The translations under genes and the position numbers were made by a program. Below, one piece after another: positions 3,544 through 53,921 of a stretch of 64,000 nt of DNA. The notes beneath the pieces are model-generated. The model was not told where the DNA came from. It searched no databases and worked only from the letters and a program-made list of their open reading frames with translations. Where the stretch lies: the NCBI RefSeq assembly GCF_002574545.1, contig NZ_NUGT01000020.1, positions 62,001 to 126,000 on the forward strand, read 5' to 3'. The DNA comes from Bacillus sp. AFS055030 (GTDB taxonomy: Bacteria > Bacillota > Bacilli > Bacillales > Bacillaceae_G). The number at the start of each line of letters is the position of its first letter. Position 1 is the stretch's first letter.

Positions 3544-3576
3544 AAAAAAGCAGAACCAACTAGATCTGCTTTTTTT
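3544..3576 (-). terminator. Terminator downstream of the vanY-like gene
   Basis: Stem AAAAAAGCAGA / TCTGCTTTTTT with a 10-base loop. Read on the minus strand it ends in a T run, about 70 bp after the vanY-like stop codon. Confidence 0.75.
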
Positions 3577-3645
3577 AAATGAAATTATCTTACTTTTTAT
3601 GCCATCGTAAAAATTCATTTTAAGTATTTTATTATTTTTCACTTT

Positions 3646-4530
3646 TCATTCGAAATTGGTTACAATTACTCCATCCGTATTGTTACCCGAAATTTCATAA
3701 TTAATTTGATCATTTATGTTTATTTCTCTGCCTTTTGAAATAGGATAATATTTTATTGTGTAATTTTTCCCATTATTGTTAATATTTATTTGTTTTTTTG
3801 CCCTTAGGTACGCTAGATATTCTTCTAAAACAAAATTCTTTTCCTTCATTATCGCACTATGTGGCAAACCAACATAGCGGATATGCCAAGGTTCAAATTT
3901 AATTCCTGTTACATCCGTTTTATCTCTTGGATAACGTAAAATGAACCCATATTTCCAGGCGTTATTTTCTATCCATTTTCCTTCAGGCGCATTAGCCATC
4001 TTCATTTGTGTTGATCCTACATCAATAGACAAGCCTAAATTATGCTCGCTATACCCGGCGGGCAAGGCATATGCAGAACCTATTTCTCGATAAATTTTAC
4101 TTTGCTTTTCAAAATCTCGATAACCACTATTTATGGTGAAATTAGTAACTCCATCTTGTTCTGCAGCAGCAATCATCTCTGAAAATCTCTGCGCTATTTC
4201 TTCTGACAAATAAATTTCGTTATCAAACAATTTGAATCCTACTGTCAATTCATTATGCGTAGATAGATTTATAATATCCGACCTAATACTTTCTTGTTGA
4301 ACTGGAATTTTACTGTTGACCAACAGCAGATTTCCCTGATAAATTTGTTCTTCTCCAATCGTTATTTTAGGGATATTTTCAGAAGTATTTTTTTCCTCTA
4401 CTTTGTTATCTACATTTATATGTTTTGGTATTTGACTTACTACTTTTGTTCCAAATAACGGTTCAACATTTATGAAAGTTAAATACACACACATTAGTAT
4501 TAATAAAAATAGTAATCCCCACTTCTTCAT
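3646..4530 (-). CDS. vanY: VanY-type D,D-carboxypeptidase, membrane anchored
   Basis: 294 residues. Residues 5-22 form a single hydrophobic anchor, so the enzyme acts on the outer face of the membrane. The M15B (VanY/VanXY) core is complete: SGYRDFEKQ (135-143), SEHNLGLSIDV with zinc ligands H163 and D170, and FEPWHIRYVG with catalytic E213 and zinc ligand H216. This family removes the terminal D-Ala from peptidoglycan precursors. The C-terminal tail NYEISGNNTDGVIVT is shared with the VanXY-like protein encoded at 6381-7229, so the two are paralogues. It is a separate unit with its own Bce-type regulator box (4685-4698) and terminators on both sides. RBS GGGAGGAAATT supports the start. VanXY-like peptidase activity is an alternative. 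Confidence 0.85.
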   Translation of the reverse strand: MKKWGLLFLLILMCVYLTFINVEPLFGTKVVSQIPKHINVDNKVEEKNTSENIPKITIGEEQIYQGNLLLVNSKIPVQQESIRSDIINLSTHNELTVGFKLFDNEIYLSEEIAQRFSEMIAAAEQDGVTNFTINSGYRDFEKQSKIYREIGSAYALPAGYSEHNLGLSIDVGSTQMKMANAPEGKWIENNAWKYGFILRYPRDKTDVTGIKFEPWHIRYVGLPHSAIMKEKNFVLEEYLAYLRAKKQININNNGKNYTIKYYPISKGREININDQINYEISGNNTDGVIVTNFE

Positions 4531-4634
4531 ATTTTTAATTTCCTCCCTAATCTATTAATTCATTTTCTCTTCTGATATGGCTGTTATATCTAGTAACCAA
4601 TGAGAACTACTGCTTTTGGTATTCCGATAACTAA

Positions 4635-4698
4635 ATAATAATTTGTCACTACTTTTTTAGGGATTCATTTTACTTACTCGATTCTTACATTGTTGTAA
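4635..4698 (-). promoter_or_regulatory. Activator-type promoter of vanY with TTACA-N4-TGTAA box
   Basis: Box TTACA-TTGT-TGTAA at 4685-4698; read on the minus strand a -10 TATTAT lies at 4635-4640, 54 bp centre to centre. There is no fair -35 hexamer (TCCCTA at the expected place), as expected for a promoter needing an activator. The same box and spacing occur before the ligase and the ABC genes. It sits in the 482-bp gap 4531-5012, whose remainder holds a terminator and nothing else recognisable. Confidence 0.7.
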
Positions 4699-4746
4699 TG
4701 TTGAATTATATATAAATTTAACTTTTTGAGCTTTTAGGTGAGAAGA

Positions 4747-4778
4747 AAAAATACCAAGAAAAAATTCTTGGTATTTTT
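4747..4778 (-). terminator. Terminator of the ligase-vanXY-racemase operon
   Basis: Perfect 14-bp stem AAAAATACCAAGAA / complement with a 4-base loop and flanking A and T tracts, so it can act on either strand. It insulates the vanY promoter from the upstream operon. Confidence 0.85.
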
Positions 4779-5012
4779 TGGCGTATTCTTTTATCAATTA
4801 AGAAATACATTTTGATAATTATCTCTCGAGAATTACAATTTAAGATAATAAATTGGTAAATGAATCCAAATAAAAGTTAACATTAATAGAAATGGAAAAA
4901 TAAAGGAGTGTTGAAACTCATGTAAATTGGATCTTAAAAATCTATCTATTTTGCTCAATTAATGTCACAGAAATATAAAATATTGATAGAAAAGTATCGT
5001 GTTGTCTTTTAT

Positions 5013-5129
5013 TTATTTAAATAATAATGTTGCAGTCCACATCAACATATAAAATAATGGTTCTGCAATAATTAATAACATAACACCTCCTAGAAATAAT
5101 ATTGCAATAAGTTTCAGGATTGAATTCAT
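5013..5129 (-). CDS. Small 38-residue membrane protein in the van-like operon (unrecognised)
   Basis: Small frame found by reading the gap behind the racemase gene. ATG at 5129 follows a strong GAGGGG site with 5-6 bp spacing. The product starts MNSILKLIAILFLGGVMLL and is hydrophobic through most of its length, with one acidic residue mid-chain (IAEPLFYML) and a terminal lysine, so it probably spans the membrane once. It lies 127 bp after the racemase stop and before the operon terminator, so it is probably co-transcribed with the ligase genes. I do not recognise the family. Codon pattern and RBS argue for a real gene, but length makes this uncertain. Confidence 0.5.
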   Translation of the reverse strand: MNSILKLIAILFLGGVMLLIIAEPLFYMLMWTATLLFK

Positions 5130-5256
5130 TTTTCCCCTCTTTTATGACAAATTAACTTCTCTTTTTTATTTTTGTCTTTATGACTTGGTAAATTTGAAAA
5201 ATCATATTTGTTTATTTAATTTTTTTATATTAGAATCCAGGTATTTGAACGCTTCT

Positions 5257-6384
5257 TTATTTAATAATTTTTCTTTTTACACGATCTCCAATGGTGCTTA
5301 GTAACTCATTTGTAATCGTGCCAGTCAATGAGGCTATCTCTTCACAACTTATCGTTTCAGAACCGTCTTGTCCAATCAAGGTTACTATGTCACCTTGTCG
5401 AATGTTGCTGATTTCAGTTACATCTACGGAAAGTTGATCCATGGAGATGTTTCCTATTATTGAAGCTCGTTGGCCGCAGATTAATACCTCACCTCCTAGT
5501 TTAGATAACTGTCTAGGAATACCATCTGCATATCCAATAGTAACCGTCGCAACGACACTTTCACGGGCTGCGGTAAAACTAAGTCCATAACCTACTGAAT
5601 CCCCAGCTTTTATTTTGTTGACACGTGAAACTCTAGCTTTGAGTGATAAAACGGGCAATAAATTTATTTTTGAGCCCACAGAAGTGTCCTTTTTAGAGAG
5701 AACACCGTATATTGCAAGTCCCGGTCTAACCATATCCGATTGCATGTAGGGATGATTGATTATGCCATAACTATTAAGAATATGAATCTTTCCTGGGTTA
5801 TATCCATTTTCTCGTATGTGTTCAGCTATTTTTTGAAGGCGATTATACTGTACACGCGTGAAATTAACATGTCGATCCTGGAGACTATCGGCTACGGCTA
5901 GGTGACTAAAGGTTCCTTTAATTTGTAAATTCTTCTGCCTGTATATCGATAATATTTTGTCTGTACGTACATAAGGTTCACCTAAACGGTTTAAGCCGGT
6001 ATCGATTTTAACGTGAACTTTTATAAGTTTACCAAAATTCCCAAGACGCTCACCATCTTCTGCATTAACAACTGTTTGAGTTAGGTCGTAAACTAAAAGA
6101 TCTTCCAAACGGTGTGTTGGCGTGTATCCAAGGATCAGAATTTCTTCTAGTATCCCATAGTTTCTCAGTTTGATTGCTTCATCTATTTCTGCTACGGCAA
6201 AATGATGTACCCCGGACTGTACTAACCGTTTTGCAATATCCACACTCCCGTGGCCGTAAGCATTTGCTTTAATAACTCCCATAAGCTCTGTTCCTCTAGG
6301 AAGGAGATCCATTAACGCAATAACATTATTTTCGAGCCTAGAAAGATCAATTTCGACCCATGCCCTATAGTCCTCACATATCAT
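5257..6384 (-). CDS. Alanine/serine racemase, PLP-dependent, VanT-like role
   Basis: Fold-type III PLP racemase of normal alanine racemase length (375 residues from the chosen start). GVIKANAYGHG carries the PLP lysine; the second active-site tyrosine is in SVGYGLSF and the C-terminal domain is complete (IGNISMDQLSVDV). I chose the ATG at 6384, whose ATGA overlaps the stop of the VanXY-like gene and which has GGGGGG upstream; an in-frame ATG at 6399 would add five residues. In VanC/E/G-type systems the third gene is vanT, a serine racemase fused to a membrane domain. Here only the soluble racemase part exists. Position in the operon implies supply of D-Ser (or D-Ala) to the ligase; substrate preference cannot be read from sequence. 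Confidence 0.85.
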   Translation of the reverse strand: MICEDYRAWVEIDLSRLENNVIALMDLLPRGTELMGVIKANAYGHGSVDIAKRLVQSGVHHFAVAEIDEAIKLRNYGILEEILILGYTPTHRLEDLLVYDLTQTVVNAEDGERLGNFGKLIKVHVKIDTGLNRLGEPYVRTDKILSIYRQKNLQIKGTFSHLAVADSLQDRHVNFTRVQYNRLQKIAEHIRENGYNPGKIHILNSYGIINHPYMQSDMVRPGLAIYGVLSKKDTSVGSKINLLPVLSLKARVSRVNKIKAGDSVGYGLSFTAARESVVATVTIGYADGIPRQLSKLGGEVLICGQRASIIGNISMDQLSVDVTEISNIRQGDIVTLIGQDGSETISCEEIASLTGTITNELLSTIGDRVKRKIIK

Positions 6385-7229
6385 TTCCGGTCCCCCCATT
6401 TCAAATAATGCGTAGTTACGATAAAACCATCTACGTTATTACCAGAGATTGTCCAGTTACAATCGTTAGCCGGAACTGTAATAGTGGTAAAATTTCGCTC
6501 TGCAAACGTGAAATAAATTTCATATAAATGATCACCTAGCTCTAGATATAGATGTTTTTTCCCATATTGAAATTGTTTTATATAGTTGATATATTCTTCC
6601 AAACATAAATTCTTCTGATCAATAATGACTGAATGCGGATGTCCTACAAATCGATAATGCCAAGGTTCATCTGCAATACCTGTTATGTCACTTTTTTCAT
6701 CTTTGTACCTACGGATAAAACCGAATTCAGTGGCTTCTTCTCGAAATTTTCTGCCTACTCCTTTATCTGGGAATTCTGGTCTGATATAATCAGTCTCCAA
6801 TTGATGAATGCCAACATCCACGGCTAATCCAGTTTGGTGTTCACTCGCACCTGGTAAAGCAACGTACTTCGTAGTGAATTCTTTTCCGTTTTCTATTAAG
6901 GATTTACAATAGAGCTTATTCTGTGCTTCCCTCGTTCTGTAACCACTAACGATTGCGATTTCTTCCCTTCCTCCGCAATAATCAATTAAATTAGTAAGCT
7001 GAAACGTGCATGCTTTCTCTAATTGAATAAAAGGTTCTTCGGGTGATACGACTTGAAGCATATCTGTTGGCAAATGGATTAAGTCCGGAGAGAGCATCTT
7101 AACTGGGTGATTCCTGTTTACCAAAATCAGTTCTCCTTCATGTATTTGATTCTTTTGTAAAATAATGTGGTCAGTTTCCTTTTCTTTAAATTTGGGAACA
7201 GAACTCCAAATACTAATAGTTTTCTCCAT
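6381..7229 (-). CDS. vanXY: VanXY-type D,D-dipeptidase/D,D-carboxypeptidase
   Basis: 282 residues without signal peptide or membrane segment, as for cytoplasmic VanXY enzymes. Motifs: SGYRTREAQ (95-103), ASEHQTGLAVDVG with zinc ligands H131 and D138, and DEPWHYRFVG with E188 and H191. The tail WTISGNNVDGFIVT matches the C-terminal extension I recall from VanXY of VanG-type clusters. Such enzymes destroy D-Ala-D-Ala and trim D-Ala from pentapeptide so that modified precursors prevail. The ATG overlaps the ligase stop (TAATG) behind GAAGGGAT, and its own stop overlaps the racemase ATG, so the three genes are translationally coupled. Confidence 0.87.
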   Translation of the reverse strand: MEKTISIWSSVPKFKEKETDHIILQKNQIHEGELILVNRNHPVKMLSPDLIHLPTDMLQVVSPEEPFIQLEKACTFQLTNLIDYCGGREEIAIVSGYRTREAQNKLYCKSLIENGKEFTTKYVALPGASEHQTGLAVDVGIHQLETDYIRPEFPDKGVGRKFREEATEFGFIRRYKDEKSDITGIADEPWHYRFVGHPHSVIIDQKNLCLEEYINYIKQFQYGKKHLYLELGDHLYEIYFTFAERNFTTITVPANDCNWTISGNNVDGFIVTTHYLKWGDRK

Positions 7230-8287
7230 TAAATCCCTTCTCTCTCCAATGAAGTTTGTATTAAGCGATCGAGTAGCTCTGTAAATCCGATTCCTGCTCC
7301 ACGCATCATGTTCGGATAACGACTTGTCTCTGTAAATCCTGGAAGTGTATTTACTTCATTAAATAAGAGAGTTCCATCAGGCGTCAGGAATAAATCGATC
7401 CTTGCTAGCCCATTACACCCAAATAAGCGATAGATACATAGTGCGATTTCTTTTGCTTCTTTCTCCTTTTCGGGACTAATTCGAGCAGGCATATGAATAG
7501 TTGAACTGCTAAGCGTATACTTTTCAGTGTTGTCAAAAAATTCACCTGATAAGGAAATTTCATCTATTAATCCTATAGTAAGATCACGATTTCCCAAAAC
7601 AGCACATCCTAATTCAATACCTTCAACATGAGACTCGATAATTATTTTGTTATCATGTTCCCACGCTTCATTTAAACCTGCTACCAATTCATCTCGGTTG
7701 TAAGCTTTTGAAATTCCAATTGAAGACCCAGATCGAGCTGGTTTAATGTAAAGGGGATAATCCAATCTTTCTGCCTCCAAAATAATATCTACATCCAATA
7801 CTTCTTTTGTTGCTATAAAAAATGGAGGAACGTGAATTCCTGCCTCTTTAGCCAAAATTTTAGACAGAGGTTTGTCCATACACATTGCTGATGATATAAG
7901 ATCGCAACCGATGAAAGGTATGTTCGCAAGTTGCAAAAGTCCCTGAATGGTACCGTCTTCACCGTTTATTCCGTGCATTACTGGAAAAACGACATCAAGT
8001 GAGGTAAAGCGGTATTCTGTATTAACAAGTTCAATTAATCCCTTCATGGAACGATCAAGAGATAATTGCGCGGGAATACAACCTGAATGGTCACTCCAGC
8101 AATCCTCTTTGATGGCTTCAACATCTCCACTGTATCGAAACCAGCGTCCTTGTCTTGTAATTCCGATCATTACCACATCATATTGATCTCTATTTATATG
8201 TTGAATAACAGAAGAAGCAGATGAAAGTGATACTTCGTATTCAGTAGAAACTCCACCAAATAATATTCCTACAGTAAGTTTTTTCAT
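7229..8287 (-). CDS. vanG: VanG-type D-Ala-D-Ser (D-Ala-D-X) ligase
   Basis: 352 residues, ATP-grasp D-Ala-D-X ligase. N-terminal motif FGGVSTEYEVSL (10-21), HGINGEDGTIQG (105-116), YIKPARSGSSIGISK (180-194), omega-loop segment FFDNTEKYTLSSSTIHMPAR (250-269) and the metal site LFNEVNTLPGFT (308-319). The TEYEVSL start, the EKYTL omega-loop and the MPARI stretch are what I remember from VanG-type D-Ala-D-Ser ligases and differ from VanA/B D-Ala-D-Lac ligases. Presence of vanXY, a racemase and vanY in tandem supports a role in glycopeptide-evading cell-wall precursors rather than housekeeping Ddl. First gene of the operon, preceded by a Bce-type box. The exact acceptor (D-Ser versus D-Ala) needs an assay. 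Confidence 0.85.
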   Translation of the reverse strand: MKKLTVGILFGGVSTEYEVSLSSASSVIQHINRDQYDVVMIGITRQGRWFRYSGDVEAIKEDCWSDHSGCIPAQLSLDRSMKGLIELVNTEYRFTSLDVVFPVMHGINGEDGTIQGLLQLANIPFIGCDLISSAMCMDKPLSKILAKEAGIHVPPFFIATKEVLDVDIILEAERLDYPLYIKPARSGSSIGISKAYNRDELVAGLNEAWEHDNKIIIESHVEGIELGCAVLGNRDLTIGLIDEISLSGEFFDNTEKYTLSSSTIHMPARISPEKEKEAKEIALCIYRLFGCNGLARIDLFLTPDGTLLFNEVNTLPGFTETSRYPNMMRGAGIGFTELLDRLIQTSLEREGI

Positions 8288-8336
8288 TTATATGCACTCC
8301 TTTGAGTAAATTTAATTCGTTGTCTTAGACACCTTA

Positions 8337-8403
8337 TTTATATCACTGATGCAACCGGTTAACGTATCGATTAATCTTTCTGTTTCCTTACAGAATTGTA
8401 AGG
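8337..8403 (-). promoter_or_regulatory. Activator-type promoter of the ligase operon with TTACA-N4-TGTAA box
   Basis: Perfect 7-bp-arm palindrome CCTTACA-GAAT-TGTAAGG at 8386-8403. On the minus strand the -10 TATAAA is at 8337-8342, 55 bp centre to centre; the -35 position reads ACGTTA, which is poor. The leader to the ATG at 8287 is about 45 nt. Confidence 0.72.
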
Positions 8404-8481
8404 TTTCCATTGTTAATTTCATTTAAGGATCATATGAAAATGGATGTGTTAAGAAATAAAATAGCGATCTATTTAAGCAAA

Positions 8482-8518
8482 CAAAAAATAGCATCCAACC
8501 TTTGTAGTTGGATGCAAA
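8482..8518 (-). terminator. Terminator of the Bce-type ABC operon
   Basis: Perfect 9-bp stem GCATCCAAC / GTTGGATGC (8491-8515), 7-base loop, T-rich tail on the minus strand. It separates the permease gene from the ligase promoter. Confidence 0.88.
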
Positions 8519-8539
8519 AATAAAATCCTATTTTTAGCT

Positions 8540-10486
8540 CTAGATAAGATGTTTTTTTATTACATTCAAATAACTTTTAAAAATAATAAGGAAATAAACA
8601 ATCTGATAGAGCAAGAAAGTGCTCAAAACGGTAATCGTGGCAGTGCCAACATCTAGCTTAAAAATCCTTTTCATAGCTTCTAAAGCAACTGTAGAGTGAA
8701 TTGTTGCAACGATATACGGTAATAAGAACATAACGCCAATTTCAATTGAAATAATTTTTTTCATTTCCTTAAAAGATACCCCTATCTTATGCAATTGTTT
8801 ATATTTCTGTTTATCACTTTCCTCATCCATATAATATTTGTTATAGATAAAGCTTCCTGTCGCTACAAAGAAAATAATGCTTAAGAAAAACGATAAAAAC
8901 ATAATCGTACCATATGCTCTTTTTTCAGTCTCATAAATATGGGATTTCGACAAAAATAATGAATTAGTATTATTTCCGAAATTTTTCTCAAACTTATCAT
9001 AAATCGTATAAGTATCTGTCCAATCTTTCACATTAAAAAAATACTGAGCATATTTTGAAGGTATTAAATATTTGTTTTCAATGCGATTAAATAACTCATC
9101 ATTAATCACATAAAATGAGTAATCTTGTTTTGGTATTGATAGTTCAATACTTTCCTTAATATGAACCTTCACTCCTCCAACCGATTTAAGAATATTTTCG
9201 GTTGGATTTTTTGGATTAATGATCTTAATGGCTTCATTCTTCTTTAAGATTAATGGTATTAAGTTTAAATTTTTTGCAAATTGATTATATACACTAGATT
9301 TCATTACAACTATTTCAGGGGCATTCTTTTGTTTAAGATATTTATTTTCGACAACTAATTTTTCATAAGATAGACTATTTTTCTTTAATTGATCTTCTAT
9401 AAAATGAACTTCTTTTGCAGTAAATGGGGCTTCTTTATGATAACTTTCATACGTAAACGCTATCGGATATCTCTTTTCTATATCTCTTAAGGTATTTGTC
9501 CAAAAAGTGAAAGAAGCGCCACTTAATATTACAGCTGCTGTAGAAGTGATGGTAATAATGAAATACATTCTGGCATTATCACGTATGCGATGAAATAAAT
9601 TAGAGACCCAAATTAGATTGGTGCTTCTTAAATAAAAGTATTTATTTTTTTTCAATAAATCAATTCCAAAAATAATGAATTGGGAAAATAATAAATAAGT
9701 GGCAATAACGACTATACCGATAATGATTAATATTAATTTCTCTAGAACAAACCCTGCAAAAATACCTCCTTTAGAAATAAGCCAATAAATCCAACTATTC
9801 TCTATTAAGTTACCAGAGATAAATACTGCATATATTTGATTTACAAAAAAAGATAATATATATCCTGAAATTAATAAAATAAAGGCTAAGAATGCAATAT
9901 ACTTTGAATATTTAGGAGCAGGACTAGCTGATATTGTTGCTTTTAGTAAATGCAGTATTTCTTTTTCCTTTACAAACAATGATGTGATTAATGAGACGAA
10001 AATGCCAAGTAACAAAAAACAAACAAGTGAAATAAGTATAGCTTTTATCGGAAAATAAAACGGTAAAGAAGGAAGCCTAAGAAGTTTTTCGATGATTTCC
10101 AAAAATAGTTTGGAGAACACTAAGCCAGTAATGATGCCGCTAATTGTTGCAGCCATACTAATTATCATATTTTCAATATAAATCATCTTAAGAAGTTGTC
10201 TTCTTGAAATGCCTAGCGTATATAGAATTCCAAATTCTTTATACTTTTTTTTCAATAATACACCGCTAGAATAAAATACATAGAAAAACAAAAACAAATA
10301 AGTAATAAATTCCGCGCCAAAAAGAGATACCTTGATATAGGACTTGAATGTTCCTTTTTCGGAATGAAGTATAAACATGGTCAAAGAGAAAAATAAAGTT
10401 GCGGAAATGAATATACTTAAAAAATATGCGAAATAAACCTTGCCATTGCGTATGACTTTTCTGGTCGCAAACTGTTTAAAATCCAT
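8540..10486 (-). CDS. BceB-type ABC transporter permease (peptide antibiotic detoxification and sensing)
   Basis: About 648 residues, the size of BceB-family permeases. Layout fits the family: one membrane span at residues ~15-38, a group of three (about 50-180), four more (about 195-310), then the large extracellular domain (about 325-520) and a last FtsX-like group of three. In this family the permease forms a complex with the BceS-type kinase, signals antibiotic load and frees lipid II-cycle intermediates from bacitracin-like or lantibiotic drugs. I place the start at ATG 10486, which has AGGTGGAG six bases upstream; a GTG at 10498 would lie inside that site. It overlaps the ATPase gene by 11 bp. 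Confidence 0.85.
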   Translation of the reverse strand: MDFKQFATRKVIRNGKVYFAYFLSIFISATLFFSLTMFILHSEKGTFKSYIKVSLFGAEFITYLFLFFYVFYSSGVLLKKKYKEFGILYTLGISRRQLLKMIYIENMIISMAATISGIITGLVFSKLFLEIIEKLLRLPSLPFYFPIKAILISLVCFLLLGIFVSLITSLFVKEKEILHLLKATISASPAPKYSKYIAFLAFILLISGYILSFFVNQIYAVFISGNLIENSWIYWLISKGGIFAGFVLEKLILIIIGIVVIATYLLFSQFIIFGIDLLKKNKYFYLRSTNLIWVSNLFHRIRDNARMYFIITITSTAAVILSGASFTFWTNTLRDIEKRYPIAFTYESYHKEAPFTAKEVHFIEDQLKKNSLSYEKLVVENKYLKQKNAPEIVVMKSSVYNQFAKNLNLIPLILKKNEAIKIINPKNPTENILKSVGGVKVHIKESIELSIPKQDYSFYVINDELFNRIENKYLIPSKYAQYFFNVKDWTDTYTIYDKFEKNFGNNTNSLFLSKSHIYETEKRAYGTIMFLSFFLSIIFFVATGSFIYNKYYMDEESDKQKYKQLHKIGVSFKEMKKIISIEIGVMFLLPYIVATIHSTVALEAMKRIFKLDVGTATITVLSTFLLYQIVYFLIIFKSYLNVIKKHLI

Positions 10487-11231
10487 AAGGATCTCCACCT
10501 AAAAGTGAAAGGACATCAATTACTTGTTGATAGAATTGCAGTCTACTCCCTCCACTATGAATTTCATTATAAATCAAACCATCTTTAATGAATATAATCC
10601 TCTCACAATAACTAGCTGCCACAGGGTCGTGCGTCACCATAATTGTTGTCAGCTTTTGTTCTTTATTAACTTTCTCAAACAATTCCATCACAGTTCTAGC
10701 TGATCTGGAATCTAAATTTCCAGTCGGTTCATCTGCCAAGAGTAGTGAAGGATTATGAATGATCGCTCTAGCTATTGCTGTTCTTTGTGCCTCACCACCT
10801 GAAACTTCATAAGTCCTTTTGTCAAGAAGATGATCAATCCGTAAAGTTTTTGCGATACTATACAACTTACTCTCTTGCTCTAATACGGAAATATTATCTA
10901 AGGTAAGTGGTAACACCACGTTCTCTGCAATTGTTAAAGTATCGAGTAAATTAAAATCTTGAAAGACAAAACCAAGCTCCCTACGTCTAAAGAGAGCTAA
11001 ATCATCACTATTCAACTGTTTTGTATTAATACCTTTAATTTGAATTTCACCAGTTGTTGGTTGATCAACAGTAGAAATCAAATTAAGTAATGTAGTCTTT
11101 CCGCTACCCGATGGCCCCATAACTCCGACAAATTCTCCAGGTTCAATTGAAAAACTTATATGTTTTATAGCGTGAGATATTACTTCTTTTCCGTAGTTTT
11201 TACTTAAATGACTAACTTTGAGCATTTCCAT
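10476..11231 (-). CDS. BceA-type ABC transporter ATP-binding protein
   Basis: 251 residues. Walker A GPSGSGKTT (about 39-47), Q-loop FQDFNLLDT, signature SGGEAQRTAIARA, Walker B LLLADEPTGNLDS and H-loop MVTHDP, the MacB/LolD/BceA class. It energises the permease encoded immediately downstream. AGGAGG seven bases before the ATG at 11231 fixes the start. First gene of a two-gene operon with its own Bce-type regulator box upstream and a terminator separating it from the kinase gene. Confidence 0.9.
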   Translation of the reverse strand: MEMLKVSHLSKNYGKEVISHAIKHISFSIEPGEFVGVMGPSGSGKTTLLNLISTVDQPTTGEIQIKGINTKQLNSDDLALFRRRELGFVFQDFNLLDTLTIAENVVLPLTLDNISVLEQESKLYSIAKTLRIDHLLDKRTYEVSGGEAQRTAIARAIIHNPSLLLADEPTGNLDSRSARTVMELFEKVNKEQKLTTIMVTHDPVAASYCERIIFIKDGLIYNEIHSGGSRLQFYQQVIDVLSLLGGDPYGF

Positions 11232-11253
11232 TTTCTAGCCTCCTTTTAATCAA

Positions 11254-11318
11254 AATATATATCTATCGTTTCTTTACAAGCGAGTCATATTTATTACTCT
11301 ATTCTTACATTATTGTAA
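11254..11318 (-). promoter_or_regulatory. Activator-type promoter of the bceAB-like operon with TTACA-N4-TGTAA box
   Basis: Palindrome CTTACA-TTAT-TGTAAG (11304-11319). On the minus strand the -10 TATATT lies at 11254-11259, 55 bp centre to centre, and no good -35 is present. This is the arrangement described for Bce-type response regulators, whose published consensus I recall as TNACA-N4-TGTAA. Confidence 0.75.
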
Positions 11319-11333
11319 GGTTTAAGCGTAAAT

Positions 11334-11370
11334 AAAAAGAACATGTATAAAAGTAAAACATGTTCTTTTT
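11334..11370 (-). terminator. Terminator of the two-component operon
   Basis: Perfect 13-bp stem AAAAAGAACATGT / complement with an 11-base loop and T tract; bidirectional in form. It lies right behind the kinase stop codon. Confidence 0.88.
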
Positions 11371-11374
11371 ATTA

Positions 11375-12373
11375 TTAGATATGATTTGTTAAAATATTAT
11401 CAAACAAAATACTGACCTTAGTACCTCGGTTCACTTCAGATTCAATTAAAATTTTATGATTTAAGTTTTCACAGATCTTTTTTACAAGATATAGACCCAT
11501 TCCAGTAGATTCTCCTAATATTCTGCCGTTTTCACCTGTGAAGAAAGGTTGAAAGACTCTCCTAATATCCTTTGGATTTATCCCAATTCCTTCATCAATC
11601 ACTTCCAATACAACATACTTTTCTTTTCTAAAAGCAGAAACTGTCAAATATTTTCCTTTCCCTTTAGAATATTTGATGGCGTTTGTAATCAATTGCTCAA
11701 TTACAAATTTAAGCCATTTTACATCGGTATATACTTCAATTGCTTCATCTACTTTTACTTTAGGCATTATATTATTCTTGATAAATAGCTTTTTTTCTTG
11801 ACTGATACTTTCCAATACTAACGATTTCAAGCTTTTCTTTTCGATCACAAAGTCACTTTCAAAGGAATCAATTCTAGCATAATATAAGGCCATATTTAGT
11901 CCTTTTTCAAGCTTTAATGCTTCATCACTCAAACCGTGTGCATAAGCTTCTCCAGCGTGTGCTTCAAGCTGAAGCCGGATGACCGAAAGTGGTGTCTTCA
12001 TTTGATGTACCCATTGATTGATAAAGGTTAAATGTTCTTGATGTTTTTTGTTTAGTTGATTCATGTTTATTTCAAATAATTGGTATTGCTGCCGTAACAA
12101 AGAAGTTAGATGTCTTCCCCAAAAGGAATCACCTTGATCTAAAGAAGTTTCCTCAATAGAATCGAATTTACTTTTGAATAAAATATAGAGGTTTTTAGTT
12201 TTAATAAATTTCCACCCTAAAAAAACGGTAAGAATGAAAGAATTGAAAATAAAGATATATATAGTATCAAAAAGTGGAAAATTCCCAGCAAGAACACAAT
12301 AAAAAGTAGTTAAAATCACGGAGAAATAATAAACAACAATAAACGGTTGGTGCTCCTTTAAAAATAAATTCAT
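11375..12373 (-). CDS. Intramembrane-sensing histidine kinase, BceS type
   Basis: 332 residues. Two N-terminal membrane spans (about 10-30 and 35-56) are separated by only a few residues, the hallmark of intramembrane-sensing kinases that detect through their ABC partner instead of an own sensor domain. H-box FINQWVHQMKTPLSVIR with H123, N-box EQLITNAIKYSKG, G-boxes DEGIGINPKDI and GESTGMGLYLVKKI are all present. Directly downstream of its response regulator (12-bp gap). Expected to autophosphorylate when the BceAB-like transporter is engaged by a peptide or glycopeptide antibiotic. The inducer is inference. Confidence 0.9.
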   Translation of the reverse strand: MNLFLKEHQPFIVVYYFSVILTTFYCVLAGNFPLFDTIYIFIFNSFILTVFLGWKFIKTKNLYILFKSKFDSIEETSLDQGDSFWGRHLTSLLRQQYQLFEINMNQLNKKHQEHLTFINQWVHQMKTPLSVIRLQLEAHAGEAYAHGLSDEALKLEKGLNMALYYARIDSFESDFVIEKKSLKSLVLESISQEKKLFIKNNIMPKVKVDEAIEVYTDVKWLKFVIEQLITNAIKYSKGKGKYLTVSAFRKEKYVVLEVIDEGIGINPKDIRRVFQPFFTGENGRILGESTGMGLYLVKKICENLNHKILIESEVNRGTKVSILFDNILTNHI

Positions 12374-12385
12374 TATTCTAACCTC

Positions 12386-13078
12386 CTACCAACTCTTGTT
12401 TAATTTGTAGCCCAAACCCCTTATTGTTTGAATTCCATTCGCAATATTAAGGTCTTGTAGTTTTTTTCTTAGCCTTGTTACATTTACGTTTAGAGTGTTT
12501 TCTTCAACAAAATCGGAGTGATCCCACATTTGTTCCAAGAGATAGTCTCGGTTAACCACCTTAGGGTATGTCTGAATCAGACTTTCTAGCAAAATTGCTT
12601 CTTTTTTTGTCAAGAGGATCGTCTTACCTTGAAACGAGACTTCTAGTCTTTCAACGTAAAATTTTAATCCTTCCATTTCGATTATCCGCTCACCTAAAGG
12701 ATTAGCATAATCCCCAATGGCCCGTCTTATATGGCTATTTATTTTGGCCATCACTACTTCATATGAGAATGGTTTTGTAATATAGTCATCTGCACCATTT
12801 TCAAGAGCCCTAACTTGATCCAAACCGCTTTCTCTAGCGGAAATAAAAAGTATAGGGACCTTAGATTTTTCCCTTATCCTCCTGCACCAATAAAATCCAT
12901 CAAACCTTGGTAAATTTACATCAAGTAAGACTAGATGTGGTTTGATGAGAAGAAATTCTTCCATAATGTTTTCAAAGTTTTCAACAATTATAGCTGATAG
13001 GCCATATTTATCAATGTGTTCTTTAAGTAAACGACTAATTGAAATATCATCTTCAATAATATAAATCGTATAGTTCAT
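12386..13078 (-). CDS. OmpR/PhoB-family response regulator, BceR type
   Basis: 230 residues: receiver domain with acidic pocket E9 D10 D11, phosphorylation site D53 (LLDVNLPRFDG) and the conserved K of DYITKPFSYE; then a winged-helix DNA-binding domain (KKEAILLESL, ENTLNVNVTRLRKKL). Paired with the BceS-type kinase downstream. The likely targets are the three identical TTACA-N4-TGTAA boxes at 4685, 8388 and 11305, which precede vanY, the ligase operon and the ABC operon; none is seen before its own gene, suggesting constitutive expression of the sensor pair. Confidence 0.9.
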   Translation of the reverse strand: MNYTIYIIEDDISISRLLKEHIDKYGLSAIIVENFENIMEEFLLIKPHLVLLDVNLPRFDGFYWCRRIREKSKVPILFISARESGLDQVRALENGADDYITKPFSYEVVMAKINSHIRRAIGDYANPLGERIIEMEGLKFYVERLEVSFQGKTILLTKKEAILLESLIQTYPKVVNRDYLLEQMWDHSDFVEENTLNVNVTRLRKKLQDLNIANGIQTIRGLGYKLNKSW

Positions 13079-16300: not shown

Positions 16301-17777
16301 ACTTTATTTCCTGAGCTGTTGAGTCATCAGTCCCCATAGCAATCAATGAATCAAGCCTTCCATCCATTGAAGAACTTGCTTTGAATTGATGTTGTCCAAT
16401 GAATTTGCTAAAAGGATTGGATTTTTCTAGAGATGATGTAACATTTCCTATTCCAGCTCCAGGACCAGCACTATCATCCTGGTCTGGCTGGAAAAATACG
16501 GTAGCGTATGCACCTTTTTCTTCTGCTCTGATTGACTCTGTATAGGCATGTAAATATGGATTAACATCGTGTGGTATTTGAATAAGTACAATTTTTCCTT
16601 TTACATCTTTACCTTCAAATTTTTCAGAACCACCTTTTCCAACATCTACCACCTCACGAGTTGTCGGTGCCTCTTGTGGATTTGCTGAAAAATCAAGGCG
16701 ACTAACTTTCAAATTCTCTTTAACTGGGGAAATCATTTTCAATTCAGGAACTTTTATGCCACTTAAACTTGCCCCAACAGCAAGTACACCTTTTGCAATT
16801 GCTGGTGCTCCGATCGTACCGTAATCAGGGCCATTATTACCGGCAGCAGCAACTACAACTACACCTGCATCAACAGCATTTTGAGCAGCTTTCGAGACGG
16901 GATCGTTCTCATCACCTGCACCACCAAGACTCATATTAATAACATCTGCAGGGTATGGATTATCTGGGGATATAGATGCTTCTATTCCTGCAATAACATC
17001 GGAGGTACTTCCTCCTCCATTATTGTCCAAAACTTTATAAGCAGTAATCGAAACATCGGGTGCTACTCCCATTAAATTTCCATTCGCTCCGATAATACCA
17101 GCGACATGTGTTCCATGTCCTTGGTCATCCATAGGATCAGCATCTTTATTGACAAAATCATAACCACCAACAATTTTATGTCCAGCTCCAAGCGCCCCGC
17201 CAAGGTCTGGGTGTGTATAATCGACACCGGTATCAATTACTGCAACTGTGACTCCTTTACCAGTAGCATCTTGATTATTTTTGTCTTTTTTATTCCAAAC
17301 ATCAGTAGCGCCAATTAAAGGAACGCTTTTTGTTAAATTTGCTCGAACTTCCTTATCCGGATAAACTGCTTTTACACCAGGAAGTGAGCGCAATTCTTCT
17401 AATTTATTTTTAGGAACCTTTAATGACATACCGTTAAAAGAAAACGTAAATTCATTTGATTTGGTGTATGGAATTCGCTTATCCTTTACTTTTTGTAAGA
17501 CTTTACCATGTGATTGTCTTAAGCTTTCAATTTGCTGGTTCAATTTTCTTTCTGTGTTACTTGAAGTAGCTCCGATCAGTTCCGTTTTCGGCAAGCTTTC
17601 AATGGCAGGTACGCCTTCCATCTCGACTATCACGCTTGTCATCTGATCATCAGGATTAATTTCTTGTGCCTTACTATTTGGAAAATCGAATAAAACATTA
17701 GCATTAGAGATTACAAGGGTTGAAGCAACAAAGCCAACTGCGGTTCTTTTCTTTAACCAATTAGTTCTTTTTTTCAT
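13386..17777 (-). CDS. Secreted subtilisin-like serine protease (S8) with PA insert and Asp-box beta-propeller
   Basis: 1463 residues, far longer than classical subtilisin. Signal peptide about 1-38, inhibitor I9-like prodomain (about 45-145), S8 catalytic domain with D182 (VIDTGVD), H221 (GHGTHVAG), oxyanion N314 (AAAGNNG) and S556 (SGTSMAAPHVAG). The roughly 200 residues between N314 and S556 hold a protease-associated-type insert. A beta-sandwich region follows (about 620-840), then at least ten Asp-box repeats of the SxDxGxxW type (SNDGGKSW, SDDKGKSW, SVDGGKTW and others, about 910-1440), typical of BNR/VPS10-like propellers. Probably released or wall-associated, degrading or binding extracellular protein. 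RBS AGAGAGGAT supports the start. It is monocistronic. Confidence 0.9.
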   Translation of the reverse strand: MKKRTNWLKKRTAVGFVASTLVISNANVLFDFPNSKAQEINPDDQMTSVIVEMEGVPAIESLPKTELIGATSSNTERKLNQQIESLRQSHGKVLQKVKDKRIPYTKSNEFTFSFNGMSLKVPKNKLEELRSLPGVKAVYPDKEVRANLTKSVPLIGATDVWNKKDKNNQDATGKGVTVAVIDTGVDYTHPDLGGALGAGHKIVGGYDFVNKDADPMDDQGHGTHVAGIIGANGNLMGVAPDVSITAYKVLDNNGGGSTSDVIAGIEASISPDNPYPADVINMSLGGAGDENDPVSKAAQNAVDAGVVVVAAAGNNGPDYGTIGAPAIAKGVLAVGASLSGIKVPELKMISPVKENLKVSRLDFSANPQEAPTTREVVDVGKGGSEKFEGKDVKGKIVLIQIPHDVNPYLHAYTESIRAEEKGAYATVFFQPDQDDSAGPGAGIGNVTSSLEKSNPFSKFIGQHQFKASSSMDGRLDSLIAMGTDDSTAQEIKSNLANGPVKLMLTGKDGTDLMASFSSRGDFNGKPDLVAPGVEIKSTYIKTEYNDSGYTRLSGTSMAAPHVAGAAALLKQLKPTWKSTDISSNLKETVNRLSSYDVDSQGAGRLDIKAAVETNVVASPNALNFGMADLKDSKIQKSATLTLNNYGDKPVEIDFTIKDDIKSEAAITVNPSHIQIKPGRPVNVTVNINMKRPEQDTNITGWVEGKIKTGKNSQHLRIPYQFIVRHFQITATPDPTPSTVNESTAYIYSPVQLSQAPKVTLRTPNGKTKKVTAVLDQGRWWKAKLPIDESGIYRIDSSSKIKNSLNEEMTIIGSGYMEKLTPNKEKETNWKSVGPYSNTGLINFGKKNSNQMRVLGKQHLSFFRSEDNAKTWNEYQNFPAADGDGRAIVVDPTNDKNLFVALNSYQSDPTYIGKIVTSNDGGKSWKNLPSPNVFIVDLMIDKSGKKLVMITEHEIYVSTDRGINWTKKPGSWTNLTKSKLHNNDLYFYSYFEGINVIKDVFSGVAKSKLLYTPQNGTFINEIDANDDILIASTTNTDKNGMYISLNKGKDWKELTHNGIPFKSVSRLEILERNIYVGTAYDGIWRSDDKGKSWKVMKKPLPGYRSYEIDFELGPKSTGKEKRQFYVASDQAGIYKTQNDGESYKRIGIPGANIYSLAIARNSKGYQLLAGTISNTYMTPLPTQKKVDSSVLEWGTSGSEGMVGEAVQHIATSPKEQNVVYKIRSGTDGPYFYSSKDGGKKWDLKSKPKVPPLDLIVSPTDSNQIIISYYIPLTNERGIIISIDGGVNWKKYKQNHIFFALAADPKDPNRIWAGGNEGLFLSKDKGKTFEKIQNISVNSISIDSKNPKHIVVGGNHLYLSKNGGKTFEKAQGVGSDELHIKINDILISPKNSKIIYAATGAFREYGLLKKGRGVLMSVDGGKTWKNISNGLQNRNATALELSPDEQFLFVGTQGGSVHRLNLTKK

Positions 17778-18345
17778 TTCGTTATCCTCTCTAATAAAAA
17801 TAGCATTTTTTTATTTTTGATTAAGTAATTAATTAGATGTTAAATGTTTAATTAAGTATTTTTTTAAAGACCAATTGTTAATTCTGTTTAAAAACGACTT
17901 AGCTTCTTCGTACTCCACCTTCCTATCTAAACAATTTACTATCTGCTACTTTTCCTCCTTTTTAAAATATCTGAAGCCATATATAAATGTAATAAATGGT
18001 TGGATATGTGAACAATACAGAATTTTAAATGGTTATGATTAAGTATTTAGATAATAAACACTTAAATGAAAAAAACTATGTCATAAGTACTATATTGTTA
18101 GAACTAATCACTTTAAAATAGAAAAAAATATTCTTAAATACTCATAAATAATCTAAATGTACTTTTAAAAAAAGGTGTAGTTGAAATTGTTAAAAAAGTG
18201 GGCTCGCATTATTAAGTTAATTTGTTGATTGATTTTATTTATTAGTTACGAATAAGCGAGAAAGAGGGATGTTTATACTTTTTAAAAGTTGAATAATATA
18301 CCACATTATTAAGTACGAGTCCTCAGCTATTTAAGTTTTTTCTTC
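17778..18345. other. Upstream region of the protease gene, no gene seen
   Basis: About 570 bp, very AT-rich, with repeated ATTAAGTATTT-like words. It should carry the protease promoter and probably transition-state control sites, but I could not assign a specific promoter or operator. No coding-like frame. Confidence 0.45.
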
Positions 18346-36725: not shown

Positions 36726-36809
36726 GTTACACATATGTCACTTTGAATAAAAAAATAACTTATATGTTTCTACATTGAATAGTATACATATAAGTTACAC
36801 ATATGTCAC
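36726..36809 (-). promoter_or_regulatory. Promoter and two direct-repeat operators of the ABC exporter
   Basis: A 16-bp imperfect palindrome GTTACACATATGTCAC is repeated exactly at 36726-36741 and 36794-36809, within a 21-22-bp identical block. On the minus strand the upstream copy provides the -35 (GTGACA, 36804-36809); 17 bp further is -10 TATACT (36781-36786). The second copy is about 50 bp downstream of the -10. The upstream copy overlaps the last codons of tetR. Confidence 0.78.
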
Positions 36810-37381
36810 TTATTTTTTATTACACCACTTAAAATTAAATTCCTTATATAGTCCATCAACTTTTCATCATCTAATCCAGAGTGATTTGGAATTGAAATAC
36901 TTTGAAAAATAAACCCAAGTAATAGCTCATTAGGTATTTCCATTTCAATAAAACCCTCTTTTTTCCCTTGTTGTATAATATGGACAAGGGGCATATATAA
37001 TTCTCTGTGCATCAAAGACAGCTTCTTTTTCTTATTCTCGAGATGTGGAGCATCTTTCGTTGGAATAATATCTTGCATGCCAAGTATTAAATGTAAATCC
37101 TTGTACATAAAAATTTTTTTCAGCAATAAATCAATCTTTTCTAAAAAAGTTTGTTCCTCTGGAATGGTTTTAAAACTTATCAAAACATTATTCATTTCCT
37201 CAATCATAAAATCCAATAATAATTCATCTTTATTTTGATAGTATTTATAGATTGCTGCACGTGAAACGTCTAACATTTTTGCCAATTCTCCGATTGTGAA
37301 ACCTTCGTACCCAGTTTGTAAAATTAATTTTTTAGTGCAAAGGAACAAATCTACTGTATTAAATTTTCGATCTCTCCCCAT
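36806..37381 (-). CDS. TetR family repressor of the ABC exporter
   Basis: 191 residues with the N-terminal helix-turn-helix KKLILQTGYEGFTIGELAKM...VSRAAIYKYYQNKDELL (about 16-56). It is the first gene of a same-strand cluster with the FtsX-like permease and ATPase. Two identical operators before the permease gene strongly suggest that it represses the exporter. Upstream of the gene there is a 17-bp palindrome GTAATTG-ACA-CAATTAC (37437-37453), and a fair promoter TTACAA-16-TATAGT, which may be its own control region. RBS AGGGAAAAA is weak but near. Confidence 0.88.
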   Translation of the reverse strand: MGRDRKFNTVDLFLCTKKLILQTGYEGFTIGELAKMLDVSRAAIYKYYQNKDELLLDFMIEEMNNVLISFKTIPEEQTFLEKIDLLLKKIFMYKDLHLILGMQDIIPTKDAPHLENKKKKLSLMHRELYMPLVHIIQQGKKEGFIEMEIPNELLLGFIFQSISIPNHSGLDDEKLMDYIRNLILSGVIKNK

Positions 37382-52884: not shown

Positions 52885-53921
52885 TTAGTTACAAATCTGT
52901 TGATACAAATAATTGGCATCTTTTCCAACTCCATAAAGAAGCCCCGAGCCTCTACGAAATTGCCAAGGTAAACCTAGAAAGTATAAACCTTCAATCGTTG
53001 TAACTCCTCTTTGATGAATTGGATCTCCATTTGAATCGATTAGATCATCTATTTGAATCCAAGAATACTCCTCCTTAAATCCAGTAGACCAGATTACGTT
53101 ATCCACATGCAGTTGAGTGTGATCCTCAAAATAAAACAGGTCATTATGTATGGATTGTGTTCTTGATTTCAGTTCGACTGTAGCATTTTTAATCAAATTT
53201 TTAAGTTCTAACCCAAAAATAGGATCGTGTCGCTTACTTAAAAACTGACCCACATTTGTATTAATATTTACATTTAATAAGCCTAATTTATCGAACCACC
53301 AAAAAGATTTTTTGTACCGATGGTTTGAGGTAAAAACATCATCTTTTGTCCAATTGACAAATACACTTTTCTTTCTTTTGAGAGTTCTACTGCAATTTGT
53401 GCTCCGGAATTTCCCCCACCAACTACTAATACAGATCCTTCTTTTAATTGATTTTGGTTTTTGTATTCAGATGAATGTACTTGGTAAACAGTTGAAGAGA
53501 GATTGCTTGAAAATTTTGGGATGAATGGTGTTTGAAAAGGTCCTGTTGCAACAACAATATTTTTTGCATGAAATTCCCCGACATTTGTTTTAATCGTAAA
53601 ACTATTTCCTGCTTTAGATAATTTTTGAACAGAAGTGTTTAATTGAATAGGTAATGAAAAAAATTTTGCATATGTAGACAAGTATTCGACCACTTCATTT
53701 TTTGTTGGATAATCATTTTGATTTCCATCAAAAACGAAACCAGGCAGTGAACTATATGATCAAGGAGAAAATAAAGTTAAAGAATAATATCGTTTTTTCC
53801 AAACTTCACCAACTTCTTTTATCCTATCAATAATCAGAAATGTTAAGCCAGATTTTTTCAAATAATACCCCATTGAAAGACCAGCTTGGCCAGCACCAAT
53901 GATTATTACATCATAATTCAT
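52885..53921 (-). pseudogene. FAD-dependent monooxygenase (CzcO-like) gene, broken by a stop and a frameshift
   Basis: ATG 53921 behind GGAAGTGAT starts MNYDVIIIGAGQAGLSMGYY, a complete FAD-binding motif. An in-frame TGA (53760-53762) interrupts LTLFSP-stop-SYSSLPG, where homologues have Arg; reading on gives the NADP motif VLVVGGGNSGAQIAVELSKE. Then a frameshift near 53300-53320 moves the frame from FLPQTIG to SFWWFDKLGLLNVNIN, which continues to the natural end at 52885 (GLPWQFRRGSGLLYGVGKDA). About 345 codons in total, with two independent lesions, so this is most likely a true pseudogene of a flavin-containing monooxygenase. Confidence 0.85.

Follow-up and report, generated by a model that had tools for sequence, protein, structure and literature searches.

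A VanG-type precursor-switching operon that is probably part of the regulon of a Bce/Psd-type flux-sensing module in Bacillus sp. AFS055030

Which regulator controls a set of VanG-type precursor-switching genes when its neighbours encode a Bce-type antibiotic-sensing module is the question raised by a stretch of 64,000 nt from Bacillus sp. AFS055030 (contig NZ_NUGT01000020.1, host genome 4.4 Mb), the whole of which is called the window below. Eight intact open reading frames (ORFs), all on the minus strand, are located at 3646..13078 in the ORF list of the window, and they are transcribed in the order regulator, kinase, ATPase, permease, ligase, VanXY-like protein, racemase and VanY. The intergenic gaps 5' of bceA, vanG and vanY are 143, 252 and 726 bp, and these genes therefore begin separate units. 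A sequence-only reading of the region had named the same genes, with VanY standing apart, and had proposed that precursor switching is wired to a flux-sensing transporter; the gene content is borne out by the ORFs and the family scores, and the locus quite probably represents a flux-sensing module of the Bce/Psd type that has drawn the VanG-type operon, together with vanY, into its regulon.

The argument for a common control lies in the spacer regions. The window contains the palindrome TTACA-N4-TGTAA at three places only, 4685-4698, 8388-8401 and 11305-11318, against 0.28 copies expected; one site lies in the gap before each of bceAB, vanG-vanXY-vanT and vanY, and none was found upstream of the regulator-kinase pair. 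The copy before vanG was the one spotted first, and the other two are therefore the independent part of this evidence. All three sites also match AnnTTACnAnnnnGTnAG, the consensus given for Bce-like regulators of L. paracasei in the accessible part of PMC10858260, and the three matches in the window compare with 0.20 expected. The putative operators, all on the minus strand, read ACCTTACAATAATGTAAG before bceA (11304..11321), ACCTTACAATTCTGTAAG before the vanG operon (8387..8404) and ACATTACAACAATGTAAG before vanY (4684..4701), and are followed by the -10-like hexamers TATATT (11259-11254), TATAAA (8342-8337) and TATTAT (4640-4635), respectively. Such a hexamer, with at least four of six positions agreeing with TATAAT, begins 58 or 59 bp from the start of the operator in 10/10 promoters from the host genome, its congener G015 and Paenibacillus montanisoli, the host and G015 promoters being related and not independent, and the best offset in 2000 shuffles was shared by no more than 7/10 promoters. 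The bceA promoter of L074, a Bce-linked locus in a Clostridia metagenome-assembled genome, was excluded from the ten and has its -10-like hexamer at 67 bp. In the whole genome the sites matching both the core palindrome and the consensus are the window's three alone, the other eight core sites failing the consensus, and at the genome's own density about 0.003 core sites would be expected in the three gaps. With one mismatch allowed the window holds seven palindrome sites against 5.99 expected, which is the level of chance. Elsewhere in the genome, one core palindrome that fails the consensus (L019, G000:C91:27854-27867) has a perfect TATAAT at 58 bp and lies upstream of a response-regulator gene whose product presumably resembles Spo0A, and another (L014, G000:C25:32715-32728) lies 83 bp upstream of the gene for a secreted coiled-coil protein which we take to be CwlO-like.

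The four genes transcribed first have the make-up of a Bce/Psd system. The regulator (12386..13078) is an OmpR/PhoB-type response regulator of the Bce/NsrR kind with Response_reg and Trans_reg_C domains; its best solved relative is 5dcm (159.0 bits), which is NsrR according to the accessible part of PMC4773095, and its recognition-helix region, NTLNVNVTRLRKK, is unlike the NTVMVHIRTLRKK of VanR. It is accompanied by a short histidine kinase of the intramembrane-sensing type (11375..12373, HATPase_c), which has two N-terminal membrane segments at residues 10-35 and 32-57 and no others, almost no outside loop and no outside sensor domain, and which scores 190.8 bits with the SapS model against 74.7 bits with the VanS model. 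An OmpR-type regulator with such a kinase is the combination typical of Bce/Psd modules, as is a transporter built from an ATPase and an FtsX permease. The BceA/PsdA-type ATPase (10476..11231) contains an ABC_tran domain, and the BceB/PsdB-type permease (8540..10498) an FtsX domain; among solved structures the latter is closest to PsdB 9ugg (201.8 bits), followed by BceB 7tcg (94.2 bits), and by its hydropathy it spans the membrane about ten times and has a large non-membrane outside domain at approximately residues 333-526. A terminator-like hairpin is located between bceB and vanG (8491..8515, minus strand), and is a weak candidate with six such sites in the region compared to 4.3 in shuffles. 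The genome has a second Bce set on contig C77, whose ATPase is 46% identical to that of the window. The palindrome before its ATPase ORF 6140-6910 (L037) is TGACA-AAAT-TGTCA with a -10-like hexamer at 67 bp, and because this TGACA-N4-TGTCA differs from the window operator it suggests that the genome has two insulated Bce circuits.

The second half of the block encodes the precursor-switching enzymes. The D-Ala-D-X ligase (7229..8287) scores 505.9 bits with the VanG model NF000091 (cut-off 495), and its best match among solved structures is 4fu0 (392.7 bits), which we take to be the VanG structure, ahead of VanA (299.2) and the best Ddl (285.2). In model score, structure match and a tree with the genome's own Ddl as the sole housekeeping row it is distinct from that Ddl. 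The possibility raised beforehand, that it groups with the housekeeping enzymes and is itself a Ddl, is ruled out by the VanG model, by 4fu0 as best match and by the tree position. Next follows a VanXY-like D,D-dipeptidase/carboxypeptidase (6381..7229) with a VanY domain, which among solved structures is closest to the D,D-dipeptidase/carboxypeptidase 4f78 (202 bits) and retains the SEHQTGLA and EPWH stretches. The VanT-type racemase (5257..6399) scores 510.6 bits with NF033131, the model of the VanT-G C-terminal part (cut-off 460), and is closer to the serine racemase 4ecl (351.1 bits) than to the best alanine racemase (226.6 bits). It carries Asn where the alanine racemase 4luy, the third alignment shown, carries Tyr, at what is presumably the site separating serine from alanine racemases. 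Only the catalytic part of VanT is encoded, as the protein has no membrane segment and the block contains no further VanT ORF. The separate vanY (3646..4530) encodes a D,D-carboxypeptidase that carries a single membrane segment at its N-terminus and scores 441.1 bits with the VanY-A/F/M model NF000472 (cut-off 425). Between the racemase gene and vanY, 3' of the former, lies a small hydrophobic ORF of 38 residues (5013-5129, minus strand), 32 of which are identical in the congener locus L036, with base differences of 6/1/8 by codon position, mostly in the third; from its sequence it may encode a small membrane protein belonging to the van operon.

VanXY (E <= 1e-40) is found in 2 of 19 family genomes, the host and the congener G015, and among the 13 genomes of the genus the Bce kinase (at least 82%) and VanXY occur together in these two, the other 11 having neither. 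In G015 all eight genes are present in unchanged order with 76-94% identity, and core sites lie before bceA, vanG and vanY, with a fourth before a VanZ-family gene. In L036, the locus of the congener, this VanZ-family gene is at 17443-17997 and its operator copy at 17257. P. montanisoli (L050) has the ligase, VanXY, a full VanT, regulator, kinase, ATPase and permease, with identities to the window of 61% for the ligase, 45% for VanXY, 50% for the regulator, 39% for the kinase, 57% for the ATPase and 29% for the permease; exact core sites precede its VanXY (6613) and bceA (11483), a one-mismatch site precedes its ligase (5433), and a common longer element follows all three. No close relatives were found on plasmids, the best ligase among 442 plasmid records being 53.9% identical and a megablast of the block in the plasmid collection giving no match.

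For a wider comparison, loci were taken from 80 of 591 confirmed places, with 5 more from an order-level search (7 of 397 genomes matched) and 33 from class- and phylum-level searches (22 of 398 and 12 of 398). Of 119 loci examined 95 were kept, after removal of one duplicate (L178, the same as L051) and of 23 that did not have ligase and VanXY on one strand within 3 kb; L049, on the same contig as L036, had been excluded earlier. Among the matches listed, these 95 ligase-VanXY clusters have a VanS-type kinase nearby in 52 cases, a weak candidate in 7, none within 8 kb in 32, a class that includes contigs ending early, and a Bce set in 4. The search for VanG-like ligases next to Bce genes that the sequence-only reading had called for yields at least four clusters, with the box before the ligase in three of the four: TTACAN4TGTAAG (at most one mismatch, within 350 bp 5' of the ligase) precedes 3/4 Bce-linked and 1/91 other ligases, and with one mismatch and the final G dropped it also precedes one VanRS-linked ligase. 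The core palindrome 15 bp before the ligase ORF of L091 (Lachnospiraceae) was judged to be a chance occurrence, being near the start codon and downstream of a possible -10 region in a locus with no Bce set. Five order-level relatives have VanRS, a full-length VanT and no core site. In a tree of 96 ligase rows those of the window, G015 and P. montanisoli fall into a single clade (100/99), which makes it probable that the Bce-wired clusters are a single lineage maintained across a large divergence; the L074 ligase is placed elsewhere, beside a VanRS-linked one. The genome's own Ddl groups with six Paenibacillaceae-type rows, separate from the remaining 89. These six (L053, L058, L059, L062, L073 and L181) are ligases beside VanXY and VanT-like genes, and by their sequence and context are a different, VanXY-linked ligase type with no VanRS seen at the loci.

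The closest known relative of the van part is the VanG-type vancomycin resistance operon of E. faecalis; the window ligase is above the VanG cut-off and nearest to 4fu0, and it has VanXY-like and VanT-type partners. The layout vanURS-vanYWG-XY-T comes in part from the accessible text of PMC4405338, and in contrast to it the block has no VanURS and no exact VanR box but a Bce regulator and operator, a racemase without the membrane half, and a VanY of the VanY-A/F/M type in a separate unit. The other half resembles the Bce/Psd modules of B. subtilis (BceRSAB, PsdRSAB) and L. paracasei (PsdRSAB, ApsRSAB) in its regulator, intramembrane kinase, ATPase and large FtsX permease. As in these, the regulator-kinase unit has no operator and the transporter unit has one, a putative site that matches the L. 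paracasei consensus in the accessible part of PMC10858260. Unlike them, the window regulon would include precursor-switching van genes; the same partial source lists dlt and mprF in known Bce-like regulons and reports no D-Ala-D-X ligase. A Bce-like module of Lactococcus lactis, YsaDCB/TCS-G, has a VanZ-domain protein, YsaA, in its cluster, and, unlike for the window, no ligase, VanXY or racemase is mentioned in the accessible part of PMC7438565. We found no description of a D-Ala-D-X ligase under a Bce-type system in the open literature, subscription papers and preprints being outside the search. The sequence-only reading was not aware of a description of the combination; the arrangement is not unique to the window, as G015 and P. 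montanisoli also have it. VanG enzymes inside a Bce-type regulon are best read as a variation on known systems, the novelty of which is not certain.

Gene content, the shared operator, the fixed -10-like distance and the conservation in two relatives are read from the sequence; with the flux-sensing chain and the enzyme chemistry of the known families, they point to the following course of events, in which regulator binding at three sites, the inducer and the D-Ser product are what we infer. The BceAB/PsdAB-like transporter would encounter a peptide that has bound a lipid intermediate of the cell wall, and its activity would drive the intramembrane kinase to phosphorylate the regulator. The regulator would then bind TTACA-N4-TGTAA before bceAB, vanG-vanXY-vanT and vanY and activate all three units. 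The transporter would free the lipid target, and the ligase, racemase and peptidases would move the ends of peptidoglycan away from D-Ala-D-Ala and towards what is most likely D-Ala-D-Ser.

Several findings weigh against this proposal. In the 4.4-Mb genome the core palindrome has 11 sites against 12 for the reversed control, and the consensus 14 against 23, so that neither is enriched alone; motif abundance was dropped as evidence for this reason, and the coincidence of core and consensus together with position counts instead. The VanXY-like protein is below the cut-offs of both the VanXY-G model (204.3 bits, cut-off 500) and the vanXY model (193.3 bits, cut-off 250). The vanG site of G015 departs from the consensus in that the final G is missing. 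The host and G015 are close kin and in one clade with P. montanisoli, and on the sequences this is one inherited arrangement and not a repeated invention. L074 has the Bce box before bceA alone and an exact VanR box before its ligase; the generalization that every Bce-linked VanG cluster is wired fails here, and judged from the promoters its Bce set and VanG cluster are neighbours that are not wired. Finally, contig C8 encodes in a row a VanR (462.9 bits, VanR-F/M cut-off 460), a VanS narrowly below its cut-off (395.3 bits, cut-off 400), a VanY and a VanZ-family protein. The wiring first proposed from sequence is strengthened by the shared operator, by the same -10-like spacing and by their retention in G015 and, diverged, in P. 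montanisoli, and weakened by this VanRS pair.

Among the alternatives, it is rather unlikely, yet worth considering, that the wiring is as described and serves another purpose. The van enzymes would then make ends that are less recognised by a lipid-targeting peptide or a D,D-peptidase, and glycopeptides would not be the selecting drug. That PsdB, a lantibiotic permease, is the solved structure nearest to the permease, and that the VanS encoded elsewhere in the genome remains available for glycopeptides, would fit such a role, but the standard set against glycopeptides consists of a ligase, a VanXY and a racemase, and 52 of the 95 such clusters are run by VanRS.

Quite improbable is control of the vanG and vanY units in trans by the C8 VanRS, as in ordinary van clusters, with the palindrome belonging to something else. 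The earlier statement that there is no VanRS pair holds for the locus and not for the genome, and the C8 VanR is above, and the VanS just below, its cut-off. The C8 operon shares the VanY-A/F/M type with the window (56% identity between the two VanY) but has its own VanR and VanS, and no TTACA-N4-TGTAA was found in the C8 stretch read (L035). The consensus of the VanR box is YCGTANGAAAWT in the accessible part of PMC4405338. No exact match to it was found before vanG, vanY, bceA or the regulator gene, the single one-mismatch match being at 8430 on the opposite strand, and the block holds no VanRS. The box (at most one mismatch) is found within 350 bp 5' of the ligase in 16/52 VanRS-linked clusters, 6/32 with no kinase, 1/7 with a weak one and 1/4 Bce-linked, against 2.2% in shuffles, and because it is visible in only 16 of the 52 its absence is weak evidence. 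The element conserved 5' of vanR across most of the genus was not found in the van gaps; moreover, VanS is present in 12 of the 13 genus genomes compared to two for the VanG set with its VanXY, and the C8 pair has a VanY and a VanZ of its own to control. Least probable of all is that a resistance island gathered separately controlled Bce and VanG sets as passive neighbours, as L074, where a VanG cluster beside a Bce set keeps the VanR box, and the separate location of most Bce sets and VanG clusters in the comparison might suggest, since the same operator and spacing precede all three non-regulator units, where about 0.003 core sites are expected, and are kept down to 29% permease identity.

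Two further observations concern the rest of the window. The sequence TTACACATATGTCA has two copies 68 bp apart, at 36727-36740 and 36795-36808. They adjoin the start-distal end of a TetR-type gene (36806-37381), precede an ABC permease unit and are possible TetR operators. At 52885-53693 on the minus strand two adjacent ORFs resemble the halves of one flavin monooxygenase-like protein and are probably a broken gene.

A Bce/Psd module governing the VanG operon and vanY might have a wider meaning. We would tentatively suggest, as less likely than the wiring itself, that in a VanG clade spanning a Bacillus-type genus and Paenibacillus VanRS has been replaced for good by the Bce/Psd module, that the transporter is the actual sensor of the drug which the van enzymes defeat, and that target release and precursor switching are one response. 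If the wiring is true, target-changing resistance would be inducible by non-glycopeptide peptides, with the transporter as sensor instead of VanS. Lantibiotic- or bacitracin-like drugs and vancomycin-type resistance would then be expected to show cross-induction, and the wiring would define an exact, testable regulon and illustrate how readily the control of van enzymes can be exchanged.

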